Part shown: piece after piece, positions 36,625 through 50,795 of the stretch
How positions within the stretch are numbered: position 1 is the first letter of the stretch
Layout: every line of letters starts with the position of its first letter
Origin: Micavibrio sp.
GTDB lineage: Bacteria; Patescibacteriota; Minisyncoccia; Moranbacterales; GCA-2747515
Assembly: GCA_020718085.1 (NCBI GenBank)
Contig: DYDB01000004.1
Location: 35,930-86,905 of the forward strand
Length of the DNA stretch: 50,976 nucleotides
Direction: 5' to 3'
Notes under the pieces: model-generated
Database searches by the model: none
What the model saw: the letters and a program-made list of their open reading frames with translations, nothing else
What the model was told of the DNA's origin: nothing
Translations under genes and position numbers: made by a program

Positions 36625-37797
36625 ATGATTAAGGTAATAAAATACAGTTTCATTTTCTTATTTATAGTTCTTCTTCTACCACAAGATGTATTTGCAGCAA
36701 GTACGTCCGTTTATTGTGAATATACTTGTAGTACATCGTACATATGCATGAACAAAGATAATAAAAATGATAAGAAATGGCCAGATCACGTAAATGGGCG
36801 TCTCAAAAGTAATTGCAATGGAGGATGCAGCGATCCGTATGAGTGTAAAAAATATTATCAGTCTTGCACAAGCCCTTGTAGCTGGGGATATATTTGTACA
36901 AATAACAGTGTGGTTCCACCGCCGGTTTATACATGTAGTTATATTACCTCATATGGATCGTGGACTGAGTGCATAAATGGTTTTCGAACAGGTTTGGATC
37001 CAGTTTTTGGTACAAAGAATATCACAAATGTTTCTGAATGCGTTGATCCGCCGCCAATCCCATGTACATTACCAGCCTGTGGAACAAGTAACGGTGGAAC
37101 ATTTGCAACTTTTCCAACAACCAATCTATGTTCCGCAGGAACTGTGGGCCATCAAGCCGAAAACGGATGGAGTTATTCATGGTCTTGTACAAGTGATGGG
37201 TCTCAAGTATGGTGTAGTGCCAATAAGCCTGTGCCAGCAGCATGTGGAACAAGTAACGGTGGAACATTTGCAACTTTTCCAACAACCAATCTATGTTCCG
37301 CAGGAACTGTGGGTCATCAAGCCGAAAACGGATGGAGTTATTCATGGTCTTGTACAAGTGGCGCATCTCAAGTGTGGTGTAATGCCAATAAACCATCAGC
37401 ACCAACATATTCTTGTCTTCCTCCACTTCCGCCAAGTGATGCACAATGGTGTAATGATGATAATGTAAACCTAACGTCAAATATTTCATGGATAAGTGTA
37501 GGAACATCACAGACTGGTTGTACTGGGCGCAAGTGTGAGTATTATGAATTGCCCACGCAAGATTACGTGTGTCAAAACAAGAATGTCAGTTGTCCACAAG
37601 GCACATCGATATGCGCAGGTGATACAAATGAAAGATGCACTAATCCTAATACGTCATGGATAAACGTCGGAGCGTCAGCATCACTATGTACTGCCCGAGA
37701 ATGTGAATGCTATACGAACTCACCAGGAACATCGACAACGGGTACAAATGGTGATGGCGATGGTGCAGATGGGCGCATGATTGAAACGCGACCATAA
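36625..37797 (+). CDS. Secreted Cys-rich repeat protein
   Basis: Signal peptide ending VFAA; many Cys; two near-identical 55-aa units (CGTSNGGTFATFPTTNLCSAGTVGHQAENGWSYSWSCTS.....WC.ANKP). Confidence 0.8.
   Translation: MIKVIKYSFIFLFIVLLLPQDVFAASTSVYCEYTCSTSYICMNKDNKNDKKWPDHVNGRLKSNCNGGCSDPYECKKYYQSCTSPCSWGYICTNNSVVPPPVYTCSYITSYGSWTECINGFRTGLDPVFGTKNITNVSECVDPPPIPCTLPACGTSNGGTFATFPTTNLCSAGTVGHQAENGWSYSWSCTSDGSQVWCSANKPVPAACGTSNGGTFATFPTTNLCSAGTVGHQAENGWSYSWSCTSGASQVWCNANKPSAPTYSCLPPLPPSDAQWCNDDNVNLTSNISWISVGTSQTGCTGRKCEYYELPTQDYVCQNKNVSCPQGTSICAGDTNERCTNPNTSWINVGASASLCTARECECYTNSPGTSTTGTNGDGDGADGRMIETRP
37075..37404 (+). repeat. Two tandem near-identical 165-bp units
   Basis: Unit 1 37075-37239 and unit 2 37240-37404; long exact stretches such as GGAACAAGTAACGGTGGAACATTTGCAACTTTTCCAACAACCAATCTATGTTCCGCAGGAACTGTGGG. 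Confidence 0.95.
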
Positions 37798-38129: not shown

Positions 38130-39980
38130 ATGGAAAACAAAAAGCACATGCAAGGTCTCGGGTCTGCACGTATTGACAAGAGATCGTACTTATTTTTATG
38201 TGGGGAGGAAGATCTGGCGCACGGTACGTTTACTGTGCGTGAAAGTGAGGATGGGATCAATTTTACTGCACTCACACAAAACGCAAAAGTTGTGAATATC
38301 AACGGACCAGCTGATGAATTTGATCAGTGTGGTTTTTTAAGTGCATCAAAAGATGGAAAGATGTACTATTTGACATACCAAATATGTGATGAGGAACGAC
38401 TGTCTGTTGCGCGATCGCGCAATTTGATCGATTGGGAAAAAGTAACAGATGTGGAAGGTATAAAAGGCAATGGTAAAATCGTGTCGGATTATTGGTATGC
38501 CGGGCGCAATGTGATGTTCACTGGCGGAGATGCAATTCGTGCACACGTTTCCTCCGACATGCAGAGATGGACGCGTGCCAAAAAAGATCTCATTGCGATC
38601 AATTTGAACGAATTTCAAATGGAACTTTTCGTATTGGATGTGCAGATCGTGGATGATGGTGTATTTGTAATGTATGCAGCAAAGACAAATGAAAGATGTG
38701 TCATACAATATAAGATCTATGGGGCATTATTTGAATATGGTGATCCAACAAAGATGATCTGGTGCTCTCAAGAGCCAATTTATGAAACACAAAATACAAA
38801 AAATAATTGCTCAACACTTTTTGGTGCGGTGGTTTTTGACGAATATTTCATCTCCTATTGGATGAATGATGCCGGAGAGATGTTCTTGTTGCGACATTTT
38901 TATCATCATAAAGAGGATGAAATTGCACGAGAAAATATTGCAGATGAATCTGTGACACAGGAAACAAATCGTCCGTTTCTTGTATTGGAGCGTGTAGAGT
39001 CAAATCCAATTTTAGAACCACAACATTTCTGTGCATGGGAGTCAAAAGCAACATATAATCCGACAGCTTTTGAACATGATGGGGTCATCCATATTATATA
39101 TAGAGCAGAGGGTCATGACATGATCTCCGTTCTCGGTTATGCTGCAACTACGGACGGCGTGACGATCGAAGATCGATTGCCATACTGTATTTATCGCAGG
39201 ATCATCAAGCCGGCAAACACAAATTTTCCAAGAGTGCCGTATACGTCCGGAGGTAATAATTACGGCGGCTGCGAAGACCCTCGTGCTGTATTGATCGACG
39301 GTGTGGTATATATTACGTACACAGCTTTTGACGGATGGGGTTCTGTGCGTGTGGCACTTACCTCAATTGACCTTGAAGATTTGAAAAATAAAATATGGAG
39401 TTGGAAAAAAACAGTTCTTATATCACCGCCTGGAGAAATGAATAAAAATTGGGTGATATTTCCGGAGAAAATCGATGGAAAATTTGCGATCATGCACAGC
39501 TTTTATCCAAAAATTCTCATTGATTATTTTGATGATCTGGATGAATTGGATGGTAGTAAACGATTTATAAAGAGTAATAATACGCGACCGATCGACCCGA
39601 CGCGTACGTGGGACAGTTGGTTTCGTGGGGTTGGTCCAGCGCCACTTCGCACGGAAGATGGATGGCTTGTTTTTTATCATGCGATGAACTGTAAAAATCC
39701 TGACAGATATAAAGTTGGCGCATTGCTTTTGGACATCAATGATCCAACAAAGGTTTTGTATCGGTCATCCGCACCGATCTTGGAACCGCAGGAAACATAT
39801 GAAAACGATGGACATAAATGGGGCGTGGTGTATTGTTGCGGTGCGGTGATCAAAGATGAGCAGGTGCTCGTGTATTATGGCGGTTCAGACAAATTTGTAT
39901 GCGTGGCCACAGCACCTTTGCGGGAATTTTTGGATGATCTCAAGCGTACAGGTGAAGTAAAAATGCATACTAAACATTAA
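38130..39980 (+). CDS. Bimodular beta-propeller protein with C-terminal GH130-type (mannoside phosphorylase-like) domain
   Basis: C-terminal half: RVESNPILEPQHFCAWESKATYNPTAFEHDGVIHIIYRAEG, GGCEDPRAVLIDGVVYITYTAFDGWGSVRVALTS, GPAPLRTEDGWLVFYHA, YYGGSDKFVCVATAPL. N-terminal half propeller-like but lacking CEDPR. Confidence 0.82.
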   Translation: MENKKHMQGLGSARIDKRSYLFLCGEEDLAHGTFTVRESEDGINFTALTQNAKVVNINGPADEFDQCGFLSASKDGKMYYLTYQICDEERLSVARSRNLIDWEKVTDVEGIKGNGKIVSDYWYAGRNVMFTGGDAIRAHVSSDMQRWTRAKKDLIAINLNEFQMELFVLDVQIVDDGVFVMYAAKTNERCVIQYKIYGALFEYGDPTKMIWCSQEPIYETQNTKNNCSTLFGAVVFDEYFISYWMNDAGEMFLLRHFYHHKEDEIARENIADESVTQETNRPFLVLERVESNPILEPQHFCAWESKATYNPTAFEHDGVIHIIYRAEGHDMISVLGYAATTDGVTIEDRLPYCIYRRIIKPANTNFPRVPYTSGGNNYGGCEDPRAVLIDGVVYITYTAFDGWGSVRVALTSIDLEDLKNKIWSWKKTVLISPPGEMNKNWVIFPEKIDGKFAIMHSFYPKILIDYFDDLDELDGSKRFIKSNNTRPIDPTRTWDSWFRGVGPAPLRTEDGWLVFYHAMNCKNPDRYKVGALLLDINDPTKVLYRSSAPILEPQETYENDGHKWGVVYCCGAVIKDEQVLVYYGGSDKFVCVATAPLREFLDDLKRTGEVKMHTKH

Positions 39981-40004
39981 GGCAATATATTTTAAAATAC
40001 GCAT

Positions 40005-41960
40005 ATGAAAAAAATTCATGTTAAACGTTATCCAAATAATCCAATTTTGGGTCCGGATCGCACGAGCTCGTGGGAAGCACAAGCTGTTTTCAATGGATGT
40101 CCGATCAGAGATGAAAAAGGATATCACTTATTGTATCGTGCACAATCATTTGAGCAGAAATACAAGCAGAACATGATGGAATTATCAACGATCGGGTATA
40201 CATTTAGTGAGGATGGATTGAGCTTTACCGGAGAGCGACGACCGCTTATTGTGCCTGAAAAAGAGTGGGAACAATATGGCTGTGAAGATCCGCGCGTTAC
40301 AAAAATTGACGATACATATTATATTACATACACAGCACTTTCTGATTACCCACACACACCAAAGGGAATTACGATCGGCGTGGCAACGACCAAGGATTTC
40401 AAAACGATTGATGCAAAACATCAAGTGACGAATTTTAATTCTAAGGCGATGGCCTTTTTTCCGGAGCGGATCAATGGAAAGATTGTAGCGATATTTACTA
40501 TGAATACTGACATACCGCCAGTACGCATTATGTTGGTGGAATTTGATACGCCAGAACAAATTTGGGATCGTAAATTCTGGAAGGACTGGGCAGAAGATCT
40601 GGATGCACATACATTGCATTTTCAGCGATCTTTGAACGACCATATTGAAATTGGCGCACCACCAGTAAAAACTGCAGAAGGATGGCTTCTCGTGTATTCA
40701 TATATCAGACAATATCGTACGGAAAATAAAATTTTTGGTATTGAGACAGCGCTCCTTGAATTGGAAAATCCTGTGCATGTTGTGGGACGTAGTGTTGACC
40801 CGCTTATCAAACCGGAAGAAATTTATGAACGTTATGGTGCAGTGCCAAATATTGCATTTCCTTCAGGTGTGACGTTGGACGGTGATGAGATGCGTTTGTA
40901 TTATGGCGCGGCAGATACGGCATGTGCAGTGGCGATGATCTCACTAAGTGAGTTGTTGGATTTTATCAGATTGAAGGATTGTGAAGAATATGTGATGGAC
41001 AATACCGTGCCAGTTGCATTGGAACGCTTTGAAGGTAATCCGATTCTTGAGCCGACACATGATGGTGGATGGGAGTCAAAATATGTGCTCAATCCGACAG
41101 CGATCTATGATGACGGGCTCATTCACATTCTTTATCGTGGACAAGATGAAAACGACACATCTTATGTGGGGCATATGACCACGGAAGATGGATTTCATAT
41201 TGTGAAGAAATACGATCAACCAATTTATGTACCGCGCATTCCTGAAGAGGTGCGAGAAGAGCCGGGAAACTCCGGATGTGAAGATGCGCGTATCACGCGT
41301 GTTGAGGATCGTTTTTACATGTGTTATACGGCGTACAATGGACACGGTCCGGCGCGTGTCGCGTTTACATCAATCGATGTGGATGATTTTCGCAGACAAA
41401 AATGGGATCGTTGGACTATACCGATCTTGATCTCACCGGATGGTATGGATGATAAAAATTCTTGTCTGGTTTCTGAAAAAGTGAATGGAAGATACGTGTT
41501 CTTTCATCGATTAAAACATACAATCTGGTTGGACTATGTAGATGATCTCAATTTTGAAAATGGGCGAACATTGGGTGGACGCAGTGTCATGTGCTCACGT
41601 CCAGACTCATGGGATAGTGAAAAAGTGGGTATTGCGGGACCGCCGTTCAAAGTGGGTAATGAATGGTTGCTTGTATATCATGCACTCTCTAAACATGATG
41701 GACAGTATAGACTTGGTGCGGCAATGTTCGATCTGGAAAAAGGTGCGGTAACAGCACGATTGGATTATCCGATCCTTGAACCACGTGCAGATTATGAAAA
41801 TAAAGGTTTGCGACCCGGCACGGTGTTTTCTTGCGGAGCAGTTCTCCTCAATGACAATCTCTTTGTGTATTATGGAGGTGCAGATGAGGTGGTCTGTGTG
41901 GCAACGATTGAATTTAAAAGTCTTGTGAATGCACTTGAAGAGCAAAAGGCACGACAATAA
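40005..41960 (+). CDS. Tandem two-domain GH130-type protein
   Basis: Two copies of the GH130 pattern: NPILGPDRTSSWEAQAVFN...GCEDPRVTKIDDTYYITYTAL...YYGAADTACAVA, then NPILEPTHDGGWESKYVLNPTAIYDDGLIHILYRG...GCEDARITRVEDRFYMCYTAY...YYGGADEVVCVA. Confidence 0.87.
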   Translation: MKKIHVKRYPNNPILGPDRTSSWEAQAVFNGCPIRDEKGYHLLYRAQSFEQKYKQNMMELSTIGYTFSEDGLSFTGERRPLIVPEKEWEQYGCEDPRVTKIDDTYYITYTALSDYPHTPKGITIGVATTKDFKTIDAKHQVTNFNSKAMAFFPERINGKIVAIFTMNTDIPPVRIMLVEFDTPEQIWDRKFWKDWAEDLDAHTLHFQRSLNDHIEIGAPPVKTAEGWLLVYSYIRQYRTENKIFGIETALLELENPVHVVGRSVDPLIKPEEIYERYGAVPNIAFPSGVTLDGDEMRLYYGAADTACAVAMISLSELLDFIRLKDCEEYVMDNTVPVALERFEGNPILEPTHDGGWESKYVLNPTAIYDDGLIHILYRGQDENDTSYVGHMTTEDGFHIVKKYDQPIYVPRIPEEVREEPGNSGCEDARITRVEDRFYMCYTAYNGHGPARVAFTSIDVDDFRRQKWDRWTIPILISPDGMDDKNSCLVSEKVNGRYVFFHRLKHTIWLDYVDDLNFENGRTLGGRSVMCSRPDSWDSEKVGIAGPPFKVGNEWLLVYHALSKHDGQYRLGAAMFDLEKGAVTARLDYPILEPRADYENKGLRPGTVFSCGAVLLNDNLFVYYGGADEVVCVATIEFKSLVNALEEQKARQ

Positions 41961-42159: not shown

Positions 42160-43950
42160 TTGAATGTAGTTATGGATATACGCAATATCGCCATTATCGC
42201 ACACGTTGATCATGGCAAAACAACGATCACAGATGCAATTATGCAACAAACAGGCGCATCGAGCGATGGGAGCATGGATAGTGATTCGATTGAAAAGGAG
42301 CGCGGGATCACAATTTATGCCAAAAATACATCTGTGATGTATAAAGATACGAAGATCAATATTGTGGATACACCGGGACATGCTGATTTTGGTTCTGAGG
42401 TGGAGCGTGTTTTGCGTTCCATCGATTCTGTGGTGCTTGTAGTGGATGCACAAGAAGGTCCGATGCCACAAACACGTTTTGTGCTCAAAAAATCTTTAGA
42501 AATCGGACATAAGCCTCTCGTTGTGATCAATAAGATCGATAAACCTGCTGCACGGCTTGGTGAAGTGGAAGAGGAGATCTATGAGCTCTTTCTTGATCTT
42601 GGAGCAAGTGATGAACAACTGGATTTCAAAACAGTGTATGCAATTGCGCGTGAAGGACGTGCGATGATCTCACCGACAGATGATAGTAAAGACATGTCCC
42701 CACTACTTGATGCAGTTTTGCAATATGTTGCTCCGGCAAAGAGCGATACAGATGCACCTTTTCGTTTACAATCATTCTCTCTTGCGTATGATGATTTTTT
42801 GGGACGTATGGCTGTTGCGCGTATCTATGAAGGTGTAGTGAAAAATGGTCCGGTGTTTGTAAAATCACTGGATGGTGCTGTGCGGAAAGCAAAAATTATC
42901 AAACTCTTTACATTTGAGGGAATCAATAAGAAAGTTGTGGAAGAAGCAACAGCTGGAGACATCGTCATGATCGCGGGTATTGAGAATATCGATATTGGAG
43001 AAACAATTTGTATGAATGAAGATGCAGAGGTTTTGCCGGCGATCACTGTGGATGAGCCGACGATCTCTCTTGAATTTCTCGTGAATGATTCACCGTTTGC
43101 AGGTAAGGAAGGACAGTTTGTGACGCGTGAACAGATTCGGGAACGTTTGAAGAAGGAGCTTGAAGTAAATGTGGGTCTTAAAGTGGATTTTTCGGGAGAA
43201 AATTTTACAGTTTCCGGTCGTGGAGAATTACATGTTGCCGTTTTTTTGGAAAATATGCGACGTGAAGGATTTGAAGTTGCCGTATCACAGCCGCGTGTGA
43301 TCATCAAGCATATTGATGGTGTAAAACAAGAGCCGTTTGAAGAAGTTACGGTAACAGTTCCAGAACAATATTCCGGAACAGTGATTGAAAAATTGGGCAA
43401 ACGTAAAGGTACGATGACCGATATGAAACATGGACATGATGGTGTGCGCATGCTTTTTGATGTGCCGACGCGTGGACTATTGGGTTATCGCAATGAGTTT
43501 ATTGTAGATACAAAAGGAGAAGGGATCATCTCCAGTCGTTTTTTGGAATTTCGACCGCATGTTGGTGAGATCAGAAGGCGTGCAGTTGGTTCAATGATCT
43601 CTGGTGAAACAGGAAAAGCTTTAGGTTTTTCTCTTGCAAATTTACAACAACGCGGAGCACTATACGTAGGTGCGAGTACGGAAGTATATGAGGGACAGGT
43701 GATTGGTAATACGGCAAAGGGAGATGAAATGACTGTTAATCCGATCAAGGGGAAGCAACTTACCAATATGCGCGCAAGTGGTACGGATGATGCGATTAAT
43801 CTGACGCCGCCAATCTTGATCACAATTGAAAAAGGTATGGAAGTAATGGCGAGTGATGAATACCTCGAGATCACACCACAAAGTGTGCGATTGCGGAAAA
43901 AATTTCTTACCGAAAATGATCGTATCAAAGCAAAGCGCAAAGGCGCATAG
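42160..43950 (+). CDS. typA: Translational GTPase TypA/BipA
   Basis: [67 protein letters not shown]-terminal [19 protein letters not shown]. The true start may be the Met at 42172. Confidence 0.96.
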
Positions 43951-43982
43951 GCGTCTATAATTTTGGAGAAATTTAACACAGG

Positions 43983-44016
43983 AAAGCTCACATGATTTTT
44001 TCAGAGTGAGCTTTTT
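43983..44016 (+). terminator. Intrinsic terminator after typA
   Basis: AAGCTCAC-ATGATTTTTTCAGA-GTGAGCTTTTTT. Confidence 0.82.
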
Positions 44017-44049
44017 TGTTTGACTTTTTTCTAATAAAATATAAAACTA

Positions 44050-44058
44050 TGCTATAAT
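44050..44058 (+). promoter_or_regulatory. Extended -10 promoter element of the giant surface protein gene
   Basis: TGC-TATAAT within ATAAAACTATGCTATAATATCCACAG; the same block recurs at about 50895-50920. Confidence 0.6.
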
Positions 44059-44090
44059 ATCCACAGATAAAACAAAATAACCCCCAAAGA

Positions 44091-47000
44091 ATGTTTTCCC
44101 AAAAAACAGACAAAAAAACTGTAAAAAGATCTTTTGTGTTAGCAGGAGGGGTTTTTGCTTTCCTTTTATTTACTTTTAACTTTACAGACTTTCTACTTTC
44201 TCCTGTATTGGCCGCTCCAGATCAAGAACTCACATATCACGGCAAACTCACTGATATTTTGGGACTTTCTGTCGCTGACGGAAATTATGACTTTACACTT
44301 ACAATTTACGACAGTGCAACAGGAGGCGCGTGTCTCTGGACTGCCAGAGGAAATTGTACAACGCCCACAAGTAAATCCATTGCTGTAAGTAAAGGTATTT
44401 TCTCCACAACTTTGGGAGAATCTGGAGATAATCCTCTTAATATCGCATTTGATGCAAACTATTACCTCGAAGTAAAGATCGGATCCAATTCACCCATGTC
44501 TCCTAGAAGAAAGATCACACCAACAGGATTCGCACTTAACACGCAAAGACTCAATGGACTGACAGCGGATAATTATATTGACACATCAGCAACAAGTCAG
44601 ACAAAATCCGGTGCACTTGCAGTCAATGGAAATTTCACAGTCAATACAGATGATTTTTTTGTAGATACGTCTAATGGGAATGTGGGGATTGGCACAATTT
44701 CTCCTTCAGCTAAACTTCACGCAATCAGTACTGCGGAACAGCTTCGCATTGGCTACGACACCTCCAATTATTTCTCCACTACGGTCAACTCTACGGGCAT
44801 GGTTACTTTTAATGCGTCTGGTACTGGTCAAGGATTTACTTTTTCTGACCTTATTACTACTACTCTTGGACTCATTTCTACTGGCTCTCTTACTTTTAAT
44901 GGAGTGACAAATGACATCATTACTGGTACTAATGAGCATTTTTCCATCATGCCTAATGGGACAGGAAATGTTGGTATTGGTACTATCACGCCTACATACA
45001 AGTTGGATATCGCTGGTGCTACCAACACTCGTGATCTTATTACACAAAACCTCATTTTCTCCGGCAACTCTTCAAGCATTCTCAATGCTTACTATGGCTA
45101 CAACGGCTACACCAATTTCTCCGGAGGTATCGGTACCGGAGGCATTGATAGGATAACGAACGCTCAAAGGATCACTAGCACAGGAAATCTCACCAATATC
45201 GGTTCTGTCCAAGCGGGAGAAATAAATTTGACCAGAGGGGGGACTTTTGCAACAAAAGTTGATTATCCCACAGATGCTAATTCCAGAAGTTTGGCTACGG
45301 GAGATCTCAACGGAGATGGCAGATCGGATTTAGCCGTTTTGAACTTGGGGGGCAGTAACGTTTCAGTCCTTATGAACAACGGTGATGGAACCTATATGGC
45401 TAAAGTGGATTATGGCACAGGGATGAATCCCTATGCGGTAGCTCTAGGAGATTTCAATGGCGACAGCAAGCTTGATATGGCAGTTACCAATCTAAGTGAA
45501 AATACTGTATCCATTTTCATCAACAATGGCAACGGCACTTTTGTGGCTGGAGTGACTTATGCTGCTGGATCGGCTCCATACAATATAGCAGTAGGTGATT
45601 TGAATGGCGACGGCAAAGCTGATCTGGTAGTGGGAGCTAATGCTGGAACCACTATCTCGGTATTATTAAACAGTGGCACAGGGACATTTTCTACAAGAAC
45701 AGCCTACACTACGGCCACTGCTCCGAGACACGTTGCTATCGGAGATATTAATGGTGATAGTCGTGCTGATATCGTAGCTTCTAACTACAGCTCCACGTCC
45801 GTTTCAGTTCTGCGAAATAACGGCAATGGCACTTTTGCGGCCAAGACGGATTATGCTACTGGAACCAATCCTTTCGGTGTCGCTATTGGGGATCTCAATG
45901 GTGATGACAAAGCCGATTTGGTTGTGACCAATCTGACAGCTACTTCAGTCTCTGTTCTCCTTAATAGTGGTACCGGCACTTTTCCTTCCAAGACGGATCT
46001 AACCACTGCCACCAATCCGTATAGTGTCGCCATGGGAGACTTTACCGGTGATGGAAAAACTGATCTGGCTGTAACTAATTCCGGATCGGCTTCAGTTTCT
46101 GTTTTTACGAACAATGGTAATGGAACTTTCGGAACTAAAGTGGACTATACAACGGGATTAACTCCTTATTCGGTGGTGAGTCGAGATCTTAACAGCGATG
46201 GAAAAACGGATCTGGCGGTAGCTAACTCTGGTTCTAGTTCAGTTTCTGTTCTTCTCAATCAGCCTCAATCCATGCTCTATGCTCAAGTGTCGACCGGAAA
46301 TGTAGGAATTGGCGCAACACTGCTCTCAGAAAAACTTACAGTGAATGGTGCGATCAATATTGGTAACACATCAAATGCATATGCGGGAACAATGCGTTGG
46401 AACGGATCAGACTTCGAAGGATATGATGGATCGCAGTGGCTTTCACTTACAGGCGGATTAGGTACGGTACAAGCGTTATGGGATGCAAACAATGATACAG
46501 GTATTCAGGTTGAGGAATCCGCAAATGAAGATATGATTCGTTTTGATATTGCTGGCACGGAGCGCATGACTCTAGGAACAACAGGTGATCTAACACTTAG
46601 CGGAAATTTCCTTCCGAATGCAGATGATACATACACGATTGGCGATAATGCACACAGGTGGCAAGATTTGTATTTAGGACCAAATTCATTGCATATTGGT
46701 ACGAGTACATCCGATGAGGGTGTCATCTCGTATGATACGACAAGTAATGTTCTCAATATTGGTACGGATGCTGTGACCAATGGTGATATTGCTTTTAATA
46801 CCGACCAGCTATTTATTGATAGCGTATCGGGTAATGTTGGTATCGGTACAACAATTACAAATGAAAAATTAACCGTGGATGGTTTAATTAGCCTGGCAGA
46901 GCAAACAACTGCACCAAGCGTGGATGCAGGATATGGAAAATTGTATGCAGGGGATGATGGAAAATTGTATTATCAGAATGGTGAAGGAGAAGAGGAAAAC

Positions 47001-50000
47001 ATTAGCCAAGTTAAAAAATTGGTGGAGGATTTTGTGGTTGATGAAGGTTCGTCAGTTAATGCTGGAGATGTGGTGGCGTTTGTAAATGAAACAGTGAAGA
47101 AAGGAGTAAATGTGACCAGCTTTGACAATGCTAGTTATTTTAACAAAGAATTTTATGGTCAATCACAATATATTTCTAATGTAAGGTTGGATAACACTCA
47201 TTTTGTCTTAGTTTATAGTAATAGTGAAAATTCAAATTATGGAACAGCTGTTGTCGGGACAATTTCTGGCACAACTATTACCTACGGTGAGGAATACATT
47301 TTTAATACTGCTTCAACCACATACATTTCAATTGCTTCATTAGACGCAAATCATTTTGTGGTGGCGTATCAAGATGGGGGTAATACTAATTATGGAACAG
47401 CAATTGTTGGTTCAGTGGTTGATTCTTCAATCTCATTTGGAGTAGAATATGTCTTTAACACGGCTTCAACGCCGTATATTGGTGGGGCAACAGCTCTCAA
47501 TACATCGTCTTTTGTAGTGGCATATTCTGATGGAGGCAACTCTTACTATGGTACGGCCATCGTTGGTTCAGTTTCTGGTGCTGTTATTACGTTTGGAGCT
47601 GAAAATGTTTTTAACGCGGCGTCTACACATGACATGTCAATAGCAGCTCTCAATACATCGTCTTTTGTAGTGGCATATTCTGATATAGGCAACTCTTATT
47701 ATGGTACAGCTAGGGTAGGATTAATTTCTGGAATTGATATTTCTTCTTATAGCGCAGAAAGTGTTTTTTCTGCAGCGAGCACTTCAGATGTATCAATTAT
47801 AATCATGGATTCAACACATTTTGTTGTTGGGTATGCGGCCGGTGTCAGCGGATCTTCCATAGTTGGTTTGATCTCTGGAAATACTATTCAGTCTTATGGC
47901 GCTTCGGCCAATTTTGGTTCTGGTGTACAGGATCTATCGCTCTCCACTATTGATGCCACGCATTTTCTCGTGGCAAGCGATAACGGATATGCTAGAATAG
48001 GCGTGCTATCCGGAGTGGCAGTTGCTTTTGGTGCTACAAATTCATTTGTAGGAGCTTCAGATATTTCTTCAGGTGATCCATATATATCAGTTTCAACTAT
48101 TGATTCGAGTCACTTTGTTGTTAATTACAGTAAATATGGTAGTACAACAGGTGTGGGAAGTGTTGTTGTAGGAGAGTTTTCTGGAAACGCTATATCTTCT
48201 TTTGGGGTGGAAACATATATCAATGCGGGAGAATACGGATCTGCAATAAATGATGAAATTTCTATCGCTGTTTTAGACATCTCGCACTTCGTAGTTGTTT
48301 ATGCCGATGATGGGGGTTTGCTGGGACGTACCGCGGGTATAGCTGTTATAGGCACTATATCTAATGGCATTGTTTCGTATGGTGAAGAGTACGATTTTGT
48401 CACATTCTATTCGACCATAGGAGATGTTTCTGTTGCGGCATTAGATTCCACACATTTTGTTATTGGATGGCAGGATAACTATGGAGCTGCAATAGTGGGT
48501 TCAATTTCTGGTACAGCCATTACTTTTGGCGTGGCAAATAATTATAATGTCACTGCGGGTGATACAGGAATGACAAAAATAGAAGTGTTAGACTCCGCGC
48601 ATTTTGTCGTATTATATCGCGATTTGTCGTCGGGATATGCTGTTGCCAGAGTTGGGGTGGTATCCGGAACAACTATTTCATCATATGGCACAGCTGTAAA
48701 TATCAGCGCTGTGGATACAGACCCTGGGAACATACAAAAACTTGATTCCACACATTTTGTTACAACCTATATTATAAATAGCACAGGATTCGGTGTTGCA
48801 AGAGTCAGTTCTGTTTCCGGAACGACCATAACAAATGGAACAGCAAGTAATTTTAATGCAGCTGTCACCACTGGGCGACCGTCGGTTTCTGCTTTAGATT
48901 CAACCCATTTTATTGTCGGATATGTAGATTATGGAGCATCATCTTATGGAACTGCCAGAGCTGCATCAGTGTCTGGCACAACGATCACTTATGGAGCAGA
49001 AAGTGTTTTTAATACAGCGATAACCTCGTATATCTCGGTCTCTGCTTTAGATTCAAATCATTTTGTTGTATCTTATCAGGATGGAGGAAATGCAAATCGT
49101 GGAACTGCACTCAATGGAGTGACATCCGGTACAACTATTGCATCGTATGGGTCGGAAGCTGTTTTCAATCTAAATGATACAAATTATGCAGATATTGCAA
49201 ACCTAGATGACACCCACTTTGTTGTGGCATATAACGATGAGAATGATCCTAATTATGCTACAACTAAAATTGGTGAGACTTCTGACAGATATCTCGGTAT
49301 AGCGCAAGAATCTTGCGCTGCAAATGAATCATGTCCAGTGGCAATTGATGGCATTTCCAATGCACATACCGGACTTACAACAGGTGCAGTTTATTATGTC
49401 ACAGAAGCTGGTGATCTCACTACCACAGACACAGGTTACAAAGTTGGTATGGCAATTTCATCTACAGAGATTGTTATTCAGTCTCAAGGAAGCACAAATC
49501 AAGGGGATATGTATTTTGGTGACATGATCTTTGCCAATGATTTTCGTATTACAGAACAATTGGGCAGTCCACTGGGGCTGATATTCAAAAATCATCTGGA
49601 TCAAGAGATTATGACGCTTGATGAATTGGGCAACATGAGAATTACCGGACAGATCAGTGCAAAAACTATGAACATTGGAGATCATTTTTTTGTGGATACT
49701 GTGGGCAATGTTGGCATTGGCACAGCCATGCCGACACAACCCCTCACTGTTTTTAATGGTACGACAACGGGGACATATACCACAGAAGGTTGGTCACATT
49801 CGTCGGATGCGCGATTAAAAACAAATGTCACACCGATTGATGGTTCGTTGCAAAAAGTTATGGCACTCAATGATGTATATTTTAATTGGATCAATGATCC
49901 ACAGGGTAATCGTCAAGTGGGATTTGTTGCTCAAGAAGTAATGAATGTTTTGCCTGAGGTGGTCACAGGCAATGAGAAAGACGGGTATGGTATTGCATAT

Positions 50001-50795
50001 GGAAATCTTACGGCGATCCTGGTTGGAGCCATGCAAGAACAGCAGAACATCATCACAAACGATGGTTTTCGCATTGATCAAAATGCATTGTCTGTGGTGA
50101 CATTTCACAATGATACAGTGAACAATCTTGCTGATGTTGATGCTGCATTGGGTGATATAAAAGAAGATCAAAACATATTACGTAGTGATTTTGATGATCT
50201 ATATGAGACGAATGCAAACATGCAAGCGGATATTTTGGAAGAAGTGGACTTGCGTATCATTGAGCGTATGCAAAATCTCGATGAAAGTTTGAAGGCTGTC
50301 ATTCAATTTGCAAAAGCGATTGATAATGATCTTTTGATTAATGCAGATCATTTAGTATTCACAGATGATGAGGGTAACGTGACAATTAATGGTATTTTGG
50401 CAATTGATCGTGTAGAAACAGAAGAAGTTGTCACGCAAAAAATAATTGTAAGAGAAATTGCGGAGGACGAATCAATTGCAGGTACTGCTACAATTATTGC
50501 TGGCACATATGATGTGTTTGTGCCTACGCGCACAGTGACGTCACGCAGTCGTATTTTTGTTACACCGCGAGGACTTGTCGAGAAAACATTGGGTGTGACG
50601 AGTGTGGATGATCGCTCTGGTTTTCATGTTTCAATCGTTGGATCTGCTAGTGAAAATATTACTTTTGATTGGTTCATCGTGGAAAAAGACGGTGAGGATG
50701 ATGCGGAAGAGTTTGCGGTGGATAATTCTCAAGATGAGATAAATGTAGATGATGATGCGAGCCAAGCTCTTGATGAAGGTGATGATGTGAAATAA
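44091..50795 (+). CDS. Giant secreted mosaic surface protein: signal peptide, NVGIGT fibre motifs, seven FG-GAP/VCBS-like repeats, about 14 repeats of a ~50-aa unit, peptidase S74 chaperone domain, C-terminal extension
   Basis: 2234 aa; signal sequence ending SPVLAA; GDLNGDGRSDLAV-type repeats x7; LDSTHFVVAYxDGGNxxYGTAxVG repeats; SDARLKTNV...GFVAQEVMNVLPEVV...GNLTAILVGAMQEQQ (S74 chaperone of endosialidase). Confidence 0.92.
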   Translation: MFSQKTDKKTVKRSFVLAGGVFAFLLFTFNFTDFLLSPVLAAPDQELTYHGKLTDILGLSVADGNYDFTLTIYDSATGGACLWTARGNCTTPTSKSIAVSKGIFSTTLGESGDNPLNIAFDANYYLEVKIGSNSPMSPRRKITPTGFALNTQRLNGLTADNYIDTSATSQTKSGALAVNGNFTVNTDDFFVDTSNGNVGIGTISPSAKLHAISTAEQLRIGYDTSNYFSTTVNSTGMVTFNASGTGQGFTFSDLITTTLGLISTGSLTFNGVTNDIITGTNEHFSIMPNGTGNVGIGTITPTYKLDIAGATNTRDLITQNLIFSGNSSSILNAYYGYNGYTNFSGGIGTGGIDRITNAQRITSTGNLTNIGSVQAGEINLTRGGTFATKVDYPTDANSRSLATGDLNGDGRSDLAVLNLGGSNVSVLMNNGDGTYMAKVDYGTGMNPYAVALGDFNGDSKLDMAVTNLSENTVSIFINNGNGTFVAGVTYAAGSAPYNIAVGDLNGDGKADLVVGANAGTTISVLLNSGTGTFSTRTAYTTATAPRHVAIGDINGDSRADIVASNYSSTSVSVLRNNGNGTFAAKTDYATGTNPFGVAIGDLNGDDKADLVVTNLTATSVSVLLNSGTGTFPSKTDLTTATNPYSVAMGDFTGDGKTDLAVTNSGSASVSVFTNNGNGTFGTKVDYTTGLTPYSVVSRDLNSDGKTDLAVANSGSSSVSVLLNQPQSMLYAQVSTGNVGIGATLLSEKLTVNGAINIGNTSNAYAGTMRWNGSDFEGYDGSQWLSLTGGLGTVQALWDANNDTGIQVEESANEDMIRFDIAGTERMTLGTTGDLTLSGNFLPNADDTYTIGDNAHRWQDLYLGPNSLHIGTSTSDEGVISYDTTSNVLNIGTDAVTNGDIAFNTDQLFIDSVSGNVGIGTTITNEKLTVDGLISLAEQTTAPSVDAGYGKLYAGDDGKLYYQNGEGEEENISQVKKLVEDFVVDEGSSVNAGDVVAFVNETVKKGVNVTSFDNASYFNKEFYGQSQYISNVRLDNTHFVLVYSNSENSNYGTAVVGTISGTTITYGEEYIFNTASTTYISIASLDANHFVVAYQDGGNTNYGTAIVGSVVDSSISFGVEYVFNTASTPYIGGATALNTSSFVVAYSDGGNSYYGTAIVGSVSGAVITFGAENVFNAASTHDMSIAALNTSSFVVAYSDIGNSYYGTARVGLISGIDISSYSAESVFSAASTSDVSIIIMDSTHFVVGYAAGVSGSSIVGLISGNTIQSYGASANFGSGVQDLSLSTIDATHFLVASDNGYARIGVLSGVAVAFGATNSFVGASDISSGDPYISVSTIDSSHFVVNYSKYGSTTGVGSVVVGEFSGNAISSFGVETYINAGEYGSAINDEISIAVLDISHFVVVYADDGGLLGRTAGIAVIGTISNGIVSYGEEYDFVTFYSTIGDVSVAALDSTHFVIGWQDNYGAAIVGSISGTAITFGVANNYNVTAGDTGMTKIEVLDSAHFVVLYRDLSSGYAVARVGVVSGTTISSYGTAVNISAVDTDPGNIQKLDSTHFVTTYIINSTGFGVARVSSVSGTTITNGTASNFNAAVTTGRPSVSALDSTHFIVGYVDYGASSYGTARAASVSGTTITYGAESVFNTAITSYISVSALDSNHFVVSYQDGGNANRGTALNGVTSGTTIASYGSEAVFNLNDTNYADIANLDDTHFVVAYNDENDPNYATTKIGETSDRYLGIAQESCAANESCPVAIDGISNAHTGLTTGAVYYVTEAGDLTTTDTGYKVGMAISSTEIVIQSQGSTNQGDMYFGDMIFANDFRITEQLGSPLGLIFKNHLDQEIMTLDELGNMRITGQISAKTMNIGDHFFVDTVGNVGIGTAMPTQPLTVFNGTTTGTYTTEGWSHSSDARLKTNVTPIDGSLQKVMALNDVYFNWINDPQGNRQVGFVAQEVMNVLPEVVTGNEKDGYGIAYGNLTAILVGAMQEQQNIITNDGFRIDQNALSVVTFHNDTVNNLADVDAALGDIKEDQNILRSDFDDLYETNANMQADILEEVDLRIIERMQNLDESLKAVIQFAKAIDNDLLINADHLVFTDDEGNVTINGILAIDRVETEEVVTQKIIVREIAEDESIAGTATIIAGTYDVFVPTRTVTSRSRIFVTPRGLVEKTLGVTSVDDRSGFHVSIVGSASENITFDWFIVEKDGEDDAEEFAVDNSQDEINVDDDASQALDEGDDVK
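45244..46265 (+). repeat. Seven FG-GAP/VCBS-like repeats within the giant protein
   Basis: GDLNGDGRSD, GDFNGDSKLD, GDLNGDGKAD, GDINGDSRAD, GDLNGDDKAD, GDFTGDGKTD, RDLNSDGKTD, each about 49 aa apart with NNGNGTF-like turns. Confidence 0.9.
47178..49275 (+). repeat. About 14 repeats of a ~50-aa unit within the giant protein
   Basis: Consensus by eye: xLDSxHFVVxYxDxGNxxYGTAxVGxxSGTxIxxGxExVFNxAxTxxISxx. Confidence 0.9.
49785..50055 (+). other. Peptidase S74 / intramolecular chaperone domain
   Basis: HSSDARLKTNVTPIDGSLQKVMALNDVYFNW...RQVGFVAQEVMNVLPEVV...AYGNLTAILVGAMQEQQ; Ser (49803-49805) and Lys (49818-49820) five residues apart. Confidence 0.88.

Follow-up and report, generated by a model that had tools for sequence, protein, structure and literature searches.

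The MAT fibers of Bdellovibrio bacteriovorus combine a signal peptide, a β-rich N-terminal domain of ~130 aa, a trimeric fiber, an S74 domain with an SDxxxK motif, and swapped tips (PMC10769870). They are displayed on the surface, and single members are self-cleaving, at the serine of the SDxxxK motif, or glycan binding (PMC10769870). The S74 fold with its SDxxxK motif also occurs in phage spikes and fibers, such as the endosialidases, the T5 L-shaped fiber, and the Pam1 tailspike. In the eukaryotic MYRF, an S74-type self-cleaving trimerization domain (PDB 7dc3) likewise has more protein behind it. Giant surface proteins with adhesion domains are known from an epibiotic patescibacterium (PMC13059738); no report of S74 in Patescibacteria was found in our literature search, which was less than full.

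When analyzing a window of 50,976 nucleotides of a patescibacterial genome (1.29 Mb), we examined its last gene, which is also the last gene on the contig (contig end at 86905). The gene (44091..50795) is a single open frame without internal stop and encodes a modular, predicted S74 surface-fiber protein of 2234 aa; the gene, its features described below, and its upstream neighbor lie on the + strand, and positions are those of the window. A first-pass annotation had described it as one ORF with a mosaic architecture, and both points held: the frame is open throughout, and an S74 domain, seven FG-GAP repeats, and 14 repeats of ~51 aa were all verified. The protein resembles MAT fibers in its probable signal peptide, in the position and size of the N-terminal domain (~130 aa versus aa 42 to 165), in a predicted β-fiber, in an S74 domain with SDxxxK, and in having many paralogs with swapped modules. 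Unlike MAT fibers, it is about twice as long, has three predicted β-propellers in the middle of the fiber, comes from a different phylum, and is known from sequence alone; moreover, its S74 domain is not terminal but is followed by a probable coiled coil and a lectin-like tip. It differs from the phage S74 spikes in its signal peptide, cellular N-terminal domain, propeller payload, and long conserved module behind S74, and from MYRF in that the latter is a membrane-tethered transcription factor without adhesive modules. By analogy, the protein most likely works like the MAT fibers; formal membership is not claimed.

Probable export signal, fiber motifs, and S74 region

The first 41 residues (44091..44213) form a probable signal peptide, as the first-pass annotation had also proposed, with a basic start and a hydrophobic core ending in a VLA/AP site (judged by eye); the same pattern precedes the conserved domain in relatives. 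Directly behind it lies a conserved N-terminal domain of ~125 aa (ELTYHGKLTD...SPRRKITPTGFALN, aa 42 to 165, 44214..44585), which shows 45 to 65% identity in genomes of the same genus and the same family and weakly matches a protein from Phycisphaerae (E value of 7e-5). A motif scan located NVGIGT fiber motifs at 44679..44696, 44967..44984, and 46833..46850, an NVGIGA variant at 46299..46316, and a fifth motif, NVGIGT, at 49707..49724, shortly upstream of S74. All five had been listed in the first-pass annotation, although the second starts at 44967 and not at 44958. By eye, VGIGTxxPxxxL resembles the MAT capping motif V-G-(G/N)-pi-x-x-P-x-x-x-L but is one residue longer. No cell wall anchor was recognized in the 2234-aa protein.

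The intramolecular chaperone domain Peptidase_S74 (PF13884; aa 1905 to 1958, 49803..49964) was identified with an E value of 6.1e-15 and a score of 55.7 bits, compared with a curated cutoff of 22, within the interval in which it had been expected (49785 to 50055). The region matches phage fibers, phage S74 models, and the MYRF self-cleaving structure (sequence match with an E value of 3e-8), and the matches to phage fiber and spike models and structures support the earlier tie to phage-fiber assembly logic. The Ser-Asp-x-x-x-Lys catalytic motif is intact (SDARLK, aa 1905 to 1910); SDxxxK is conserved in 25 of the 27 aligned relatives, while one has SSxxxK and one does not include the start of the region. 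Self-cleavage is predicted directly before Ser1905.

S74 had been taken for the C-terminal domain. However, about 275 further residues follow the S74 match, comprising a long helix and a β-sandwich. The helix, a single one of ~108 residues in the AlphaFold model (49998..50321), is a probable coiled coil, with heptad periodicity in most family members and only modest periodicity in the 2234-aa protein itself (41 of 1,000 shuffles were equally good). Model, structure, and profile comparisons point to a K1-lyase_C or lectin-like β-sandwich tip (50463..50690), followed by an acidic tail (50691..50792) that is present in a subset of relatives only. The C-terminal AlphaFold model is weak overall (pLDDT of 67, pTM of 0.30), with local values of about 80 to 93 for S74 and the tip. 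K1-lyase_C (PF24146) scored 19.2 bits on the protein, under the cutoff of 27, and 17 of 23 aligned members match it at E values of up to 1 (best, 3e-6). In fold, the tip resembles the C-terminal domain of Klebsiella K1 lyase, the R2-pyocin and AP22 tips, and H-type lectins, and sugar binding is only putative. In R-pyocin and AP22 fibers, such a lectin-like fold has been suggested to bind lipopolysaccharide (PMC13082707). The tip closes 27 of the 29 S74 proteins of the phylum that we read, a fraction biased upward because many loci were retrieved via matches to the C terminus, and some proteins have the tip without S74. The predicted helix and phage-type, lectin-like tip after S74 are conserved across the family.

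Predicted β-propellers and their host domain

Pfam FG-GAP_3 matched seven stretches (E value of 1.1e-57) at 45243..46295, in agreement with the seven FG-GAP-like repeats noted at first pass. Their seven DxNGD-like, Ca-loop-like motifs are spaced exactly 49 aa apart, and the region shows a weak match to integrin alpha-V (E value of 0.003). From family membership, the repeats would fold into one seven-bladed integrin-type β-propeller.

The second array, previously described as about 14 copies of a ~50-aa repeat, contains exactly 14 copies with a unit of ~51 aa, which were independently recovered as 14 profile hits (E values of 6e-14 to 4e-24). AlphaFold, Foldseek, and the blade register identify it as β-propellers and not as fiber. 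In keeping with the earlier expectation of folded repeat domains, AlphaFold predicted the first half of the array (aa 1005 to 1372) as a confident propeller (pLDDT of 90.8, pTM of 0.91), and Foldseek retrieved G-beta, Sec12, NUP43, and sialidase propellers for the model at 7 to 12% identity. According to this model of the first half, the 14 repeats are two tandem seven-bladed β-propellers whose units are four-stranded blades: propeller A (47112..48200), with split (velcro) closure, and propeller B (48201..49289), assigned to the same repeat family by the repeat profile and by alignment in the seven-blade register of A.

The propeller family gave no PDB sequence match and no Pfam model covering or convincingly matching it; Agenet and Clathrin_propel were rejected as its identity, the Pfam hits in members being few and inconsistent. 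Querying genome contigs with the native repeat found no relatives, and the consensus repeat found 16 loci, in several patescibacterial groups (including a 3610-aa frame of Candidatus Gracilibacteria), Sumerlaeota, Candidatus Celaenobacter, Chlorobiota, Phycisphaerae, Maricaulis, and two archaea. Proteins of this family without a Pfam model, from several bacterial phyla and archaea, are often secreted looking (loci L085 to L100). Many of the sister arrays start with a short piece and end with a truncated unit, with six complete units in between, a pattern that indicates split-blade closure of a seven-bladed propeller. Nine of them align in one seven-blade register with both halves of the 14-repeat array; an alignment over all 14 repeats was set aside because it smeared the seven-blade rows across both halves. 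Among 131 genomes of the order, the family is present in this genome only, and in the phylum sample it is found in 6 of 380 genomes. Searches of viral, phage, and plasmid sequences with the propeller found nothing. The GC content shows no sharp difference across the array, and therefore no recent transfer is claimed on composition.

The array is bordered by the two halves of a small β-domain, the N-terminal half (VKKLVEDFVVDEGSSVNAGDVVAFVNETVKKG) at 47010..47108 and the C-terminal half (YLGIAQES...GYKVGMAISSTEIVIQ) at 49290..49484. The same flanks, ...SVNAGDVVAFVNETVKKG and YLGIAQES...GLTTGAVYYVTEAGDLTTT...VGMAISSTEIVIQ, also border the propeller in one protein each of Phycisphaerae (E value of 4e-24) and Sumerlaeota (E value of 9e-20), as found in a small local sequence set. 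A likely uninterrupted copy of this host domain is found in another S74 protein (locus L114, genome G319), with 39% identity over the second half and the N-terminal half recognized by eye. Because the flanks are split in other phyla and the L114 copy appears uninterrupted, the most plausible interpretation is that the propeller array has been inserted into a loop of the small host domain. In the L114 protein, the terminal tip looks like the intact host domain, replacing the lectin-like tip. Behind the host domain, a fiber stretch (GDMYFGDMIFANDFRITE...LIFKN, 49488..49640) has colinear counterparts in two proteins, the S74 protein L096 of Kaiserbacteria and the 3402-aa protein L098: both have GDMIFANDFRITE after the propeller, with the same continuation as in the 2234-aa protein, and in L096 VGIG motifs and then S74 follow.

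Paralogs, relatives, and the typA site

Five S74 proteins are encoded in the genome, on five contigs, with frames of 843 to 4025 aa. S74 was found in 31 of 57 genomes of the order, with up to 10 copies each, and in 92 of the 380 genomes of the phylum sample, with frames of up to 8840 aa. Ahead of S74, the paralogs carry kelch, F5/8-C, End_tail_spike, or FG-GAP modules. In the 4025-aa paralog (L026, 766 to 12840; contig C12 of genome G000), S74 is combined with F5/8-C domains, numerous kelch repeats, and a match to an endosialidase-spike profile (PF12219); the FG-GAP repeats are in a different paralog.

Directly upstream of the fiber ORF, a gene at 42160..43950, which we take to encode a typA/bipA-like GTPase, has conserved matches in relatives and served as a marker of the site. 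In a genome of the same genus (G005), the typA-linked gene encodes an 809-aa S74 protein. Of the architecture that was to be sought in relatives, both ends are kept there and neither repeat array is present, so that fixed ends with swapped middles are directly seen. In three other genomes (G001, G003, and G004), other surface-type proteins lie downstream of typA, and in the other genera sampled no such gene was found beside typA. Across species of the genus, the site (42160 to 50795; L040, L051, L052, and L053) thus holds differing giant surface-type proteins with an S74 fiber, BspA-like repeats, or other repeats, which suggests a variable surface-gene site. Elsewhere in the window, we observed a secreted-looking, Cys-rich 390-aa protein without a Pfam match, whose gene (36625 to 37797) contains a near-perfect tandem duplication of 165 bp (37073 to 37391), and two neighboring GH130-type mannoside phosphorylase genes (38130 to 41960), the second with two GH130 stretches.

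Proposed function and alternative explanations

As proposed at first pass, the protein is best interpreted as a trimeric adhesin of the cell surface, in line with the experimentally studied MAT fibers of Bdellovibrio. We consider it likely that the gene encodes a secreted, chromosomally encoded trimeric surface fiber of MAT-like type in a small patescibacterium that probably depends on a partner. The signal peptide would export the chain, and the conserved N-terminal domain would remain at the cell surface. Trimer assembly is expected by homology: S74 would nucleate trimer folding, the β-rich NVGIGT segments would form a three-chain stalk, and after correct folding S74 would probably cut itself off before Ser1905. 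Three seven-bladed propellers per chain, one FG-GAP and two without a Pfam model, and hence up to nine per trimer, would be side-mounted binding modules. The C-terminal piece of ~330 residues (S74, helix, and lectin-like tip) would either cap the fiber end noncovalently or be shed. The fiber would most likely bind glycans or proteins, either on partner cells or on surfaces; its cleavage, surface location, and ligand are putative.

The phage-type S74 and tip domains could also point to a prophage or a recently captured phage tail-fiber gene whose product acts on the virion and not on the cell. We regard this as very unlikely, as the protein has a signal peptide, the identified neighbors are cellular (GH130, typA-like, AcrB-type, and histidine kinases), and S74 proteins are present as five paralogs on five contigs and multicopy in relatives; moreover, the 351 phage records with a match cover the S74 stretch alone (best coverage of about 30%), and none of the phage records searched matches the N-terminal domain or the 51-aa-repeat propeller. 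It is extremely improbable that two or three distinct repeat genes were fused into this ORF during assembly, as could be suspected for a repeat-rich gene near a contig end, because the frame is single and open, both of its ends match S74 paralogs or relatives, and the propeller, the GDMIFANDFRITE stretch, the VGIG motifs, and S74 are colinear in the Kaiserbacteria protein.

Another explanation is that the propellers are enzymes, e.g., glycosidases, and the fiber merely their carrier. Phage S74 spikes often bear depolymerases, sialidases are among the Foldseek matches, and one paralog has the endosialidase-spike match. However, the likeness to sialidases is at the fold level only, the propellers match no enzyme family, and FG-GAP propellers classically act as binding modules; we therefore judge an enzymatic role unlikely. 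Within the reading as a MAT-like fiber, we tentatively raise a further, rather doubtful possibility, namely that S74 acts as an internal splitter by which one gene would give two trimeric products, a surface-anchored propeller fiber and a separate coiled-coil lectin-like trimer, the latter capping the fiber reversibly or being released toward the partner cell.

Partner recognition and attachment in Patescibacteria are still poorly understood, and multicopy, phage-like, probably self-processing fibers with exchangeable propellers offer a testable candidate system. With S74 in about a quarter of the phylum genomes sampled, the MAT idea would be extended from a predator to this phylum. In addition, the analysis points to a β-propeller family that lacks a Pfam model, is common to bacterial phyla and archaea, and shows signs of insertion into host domains.
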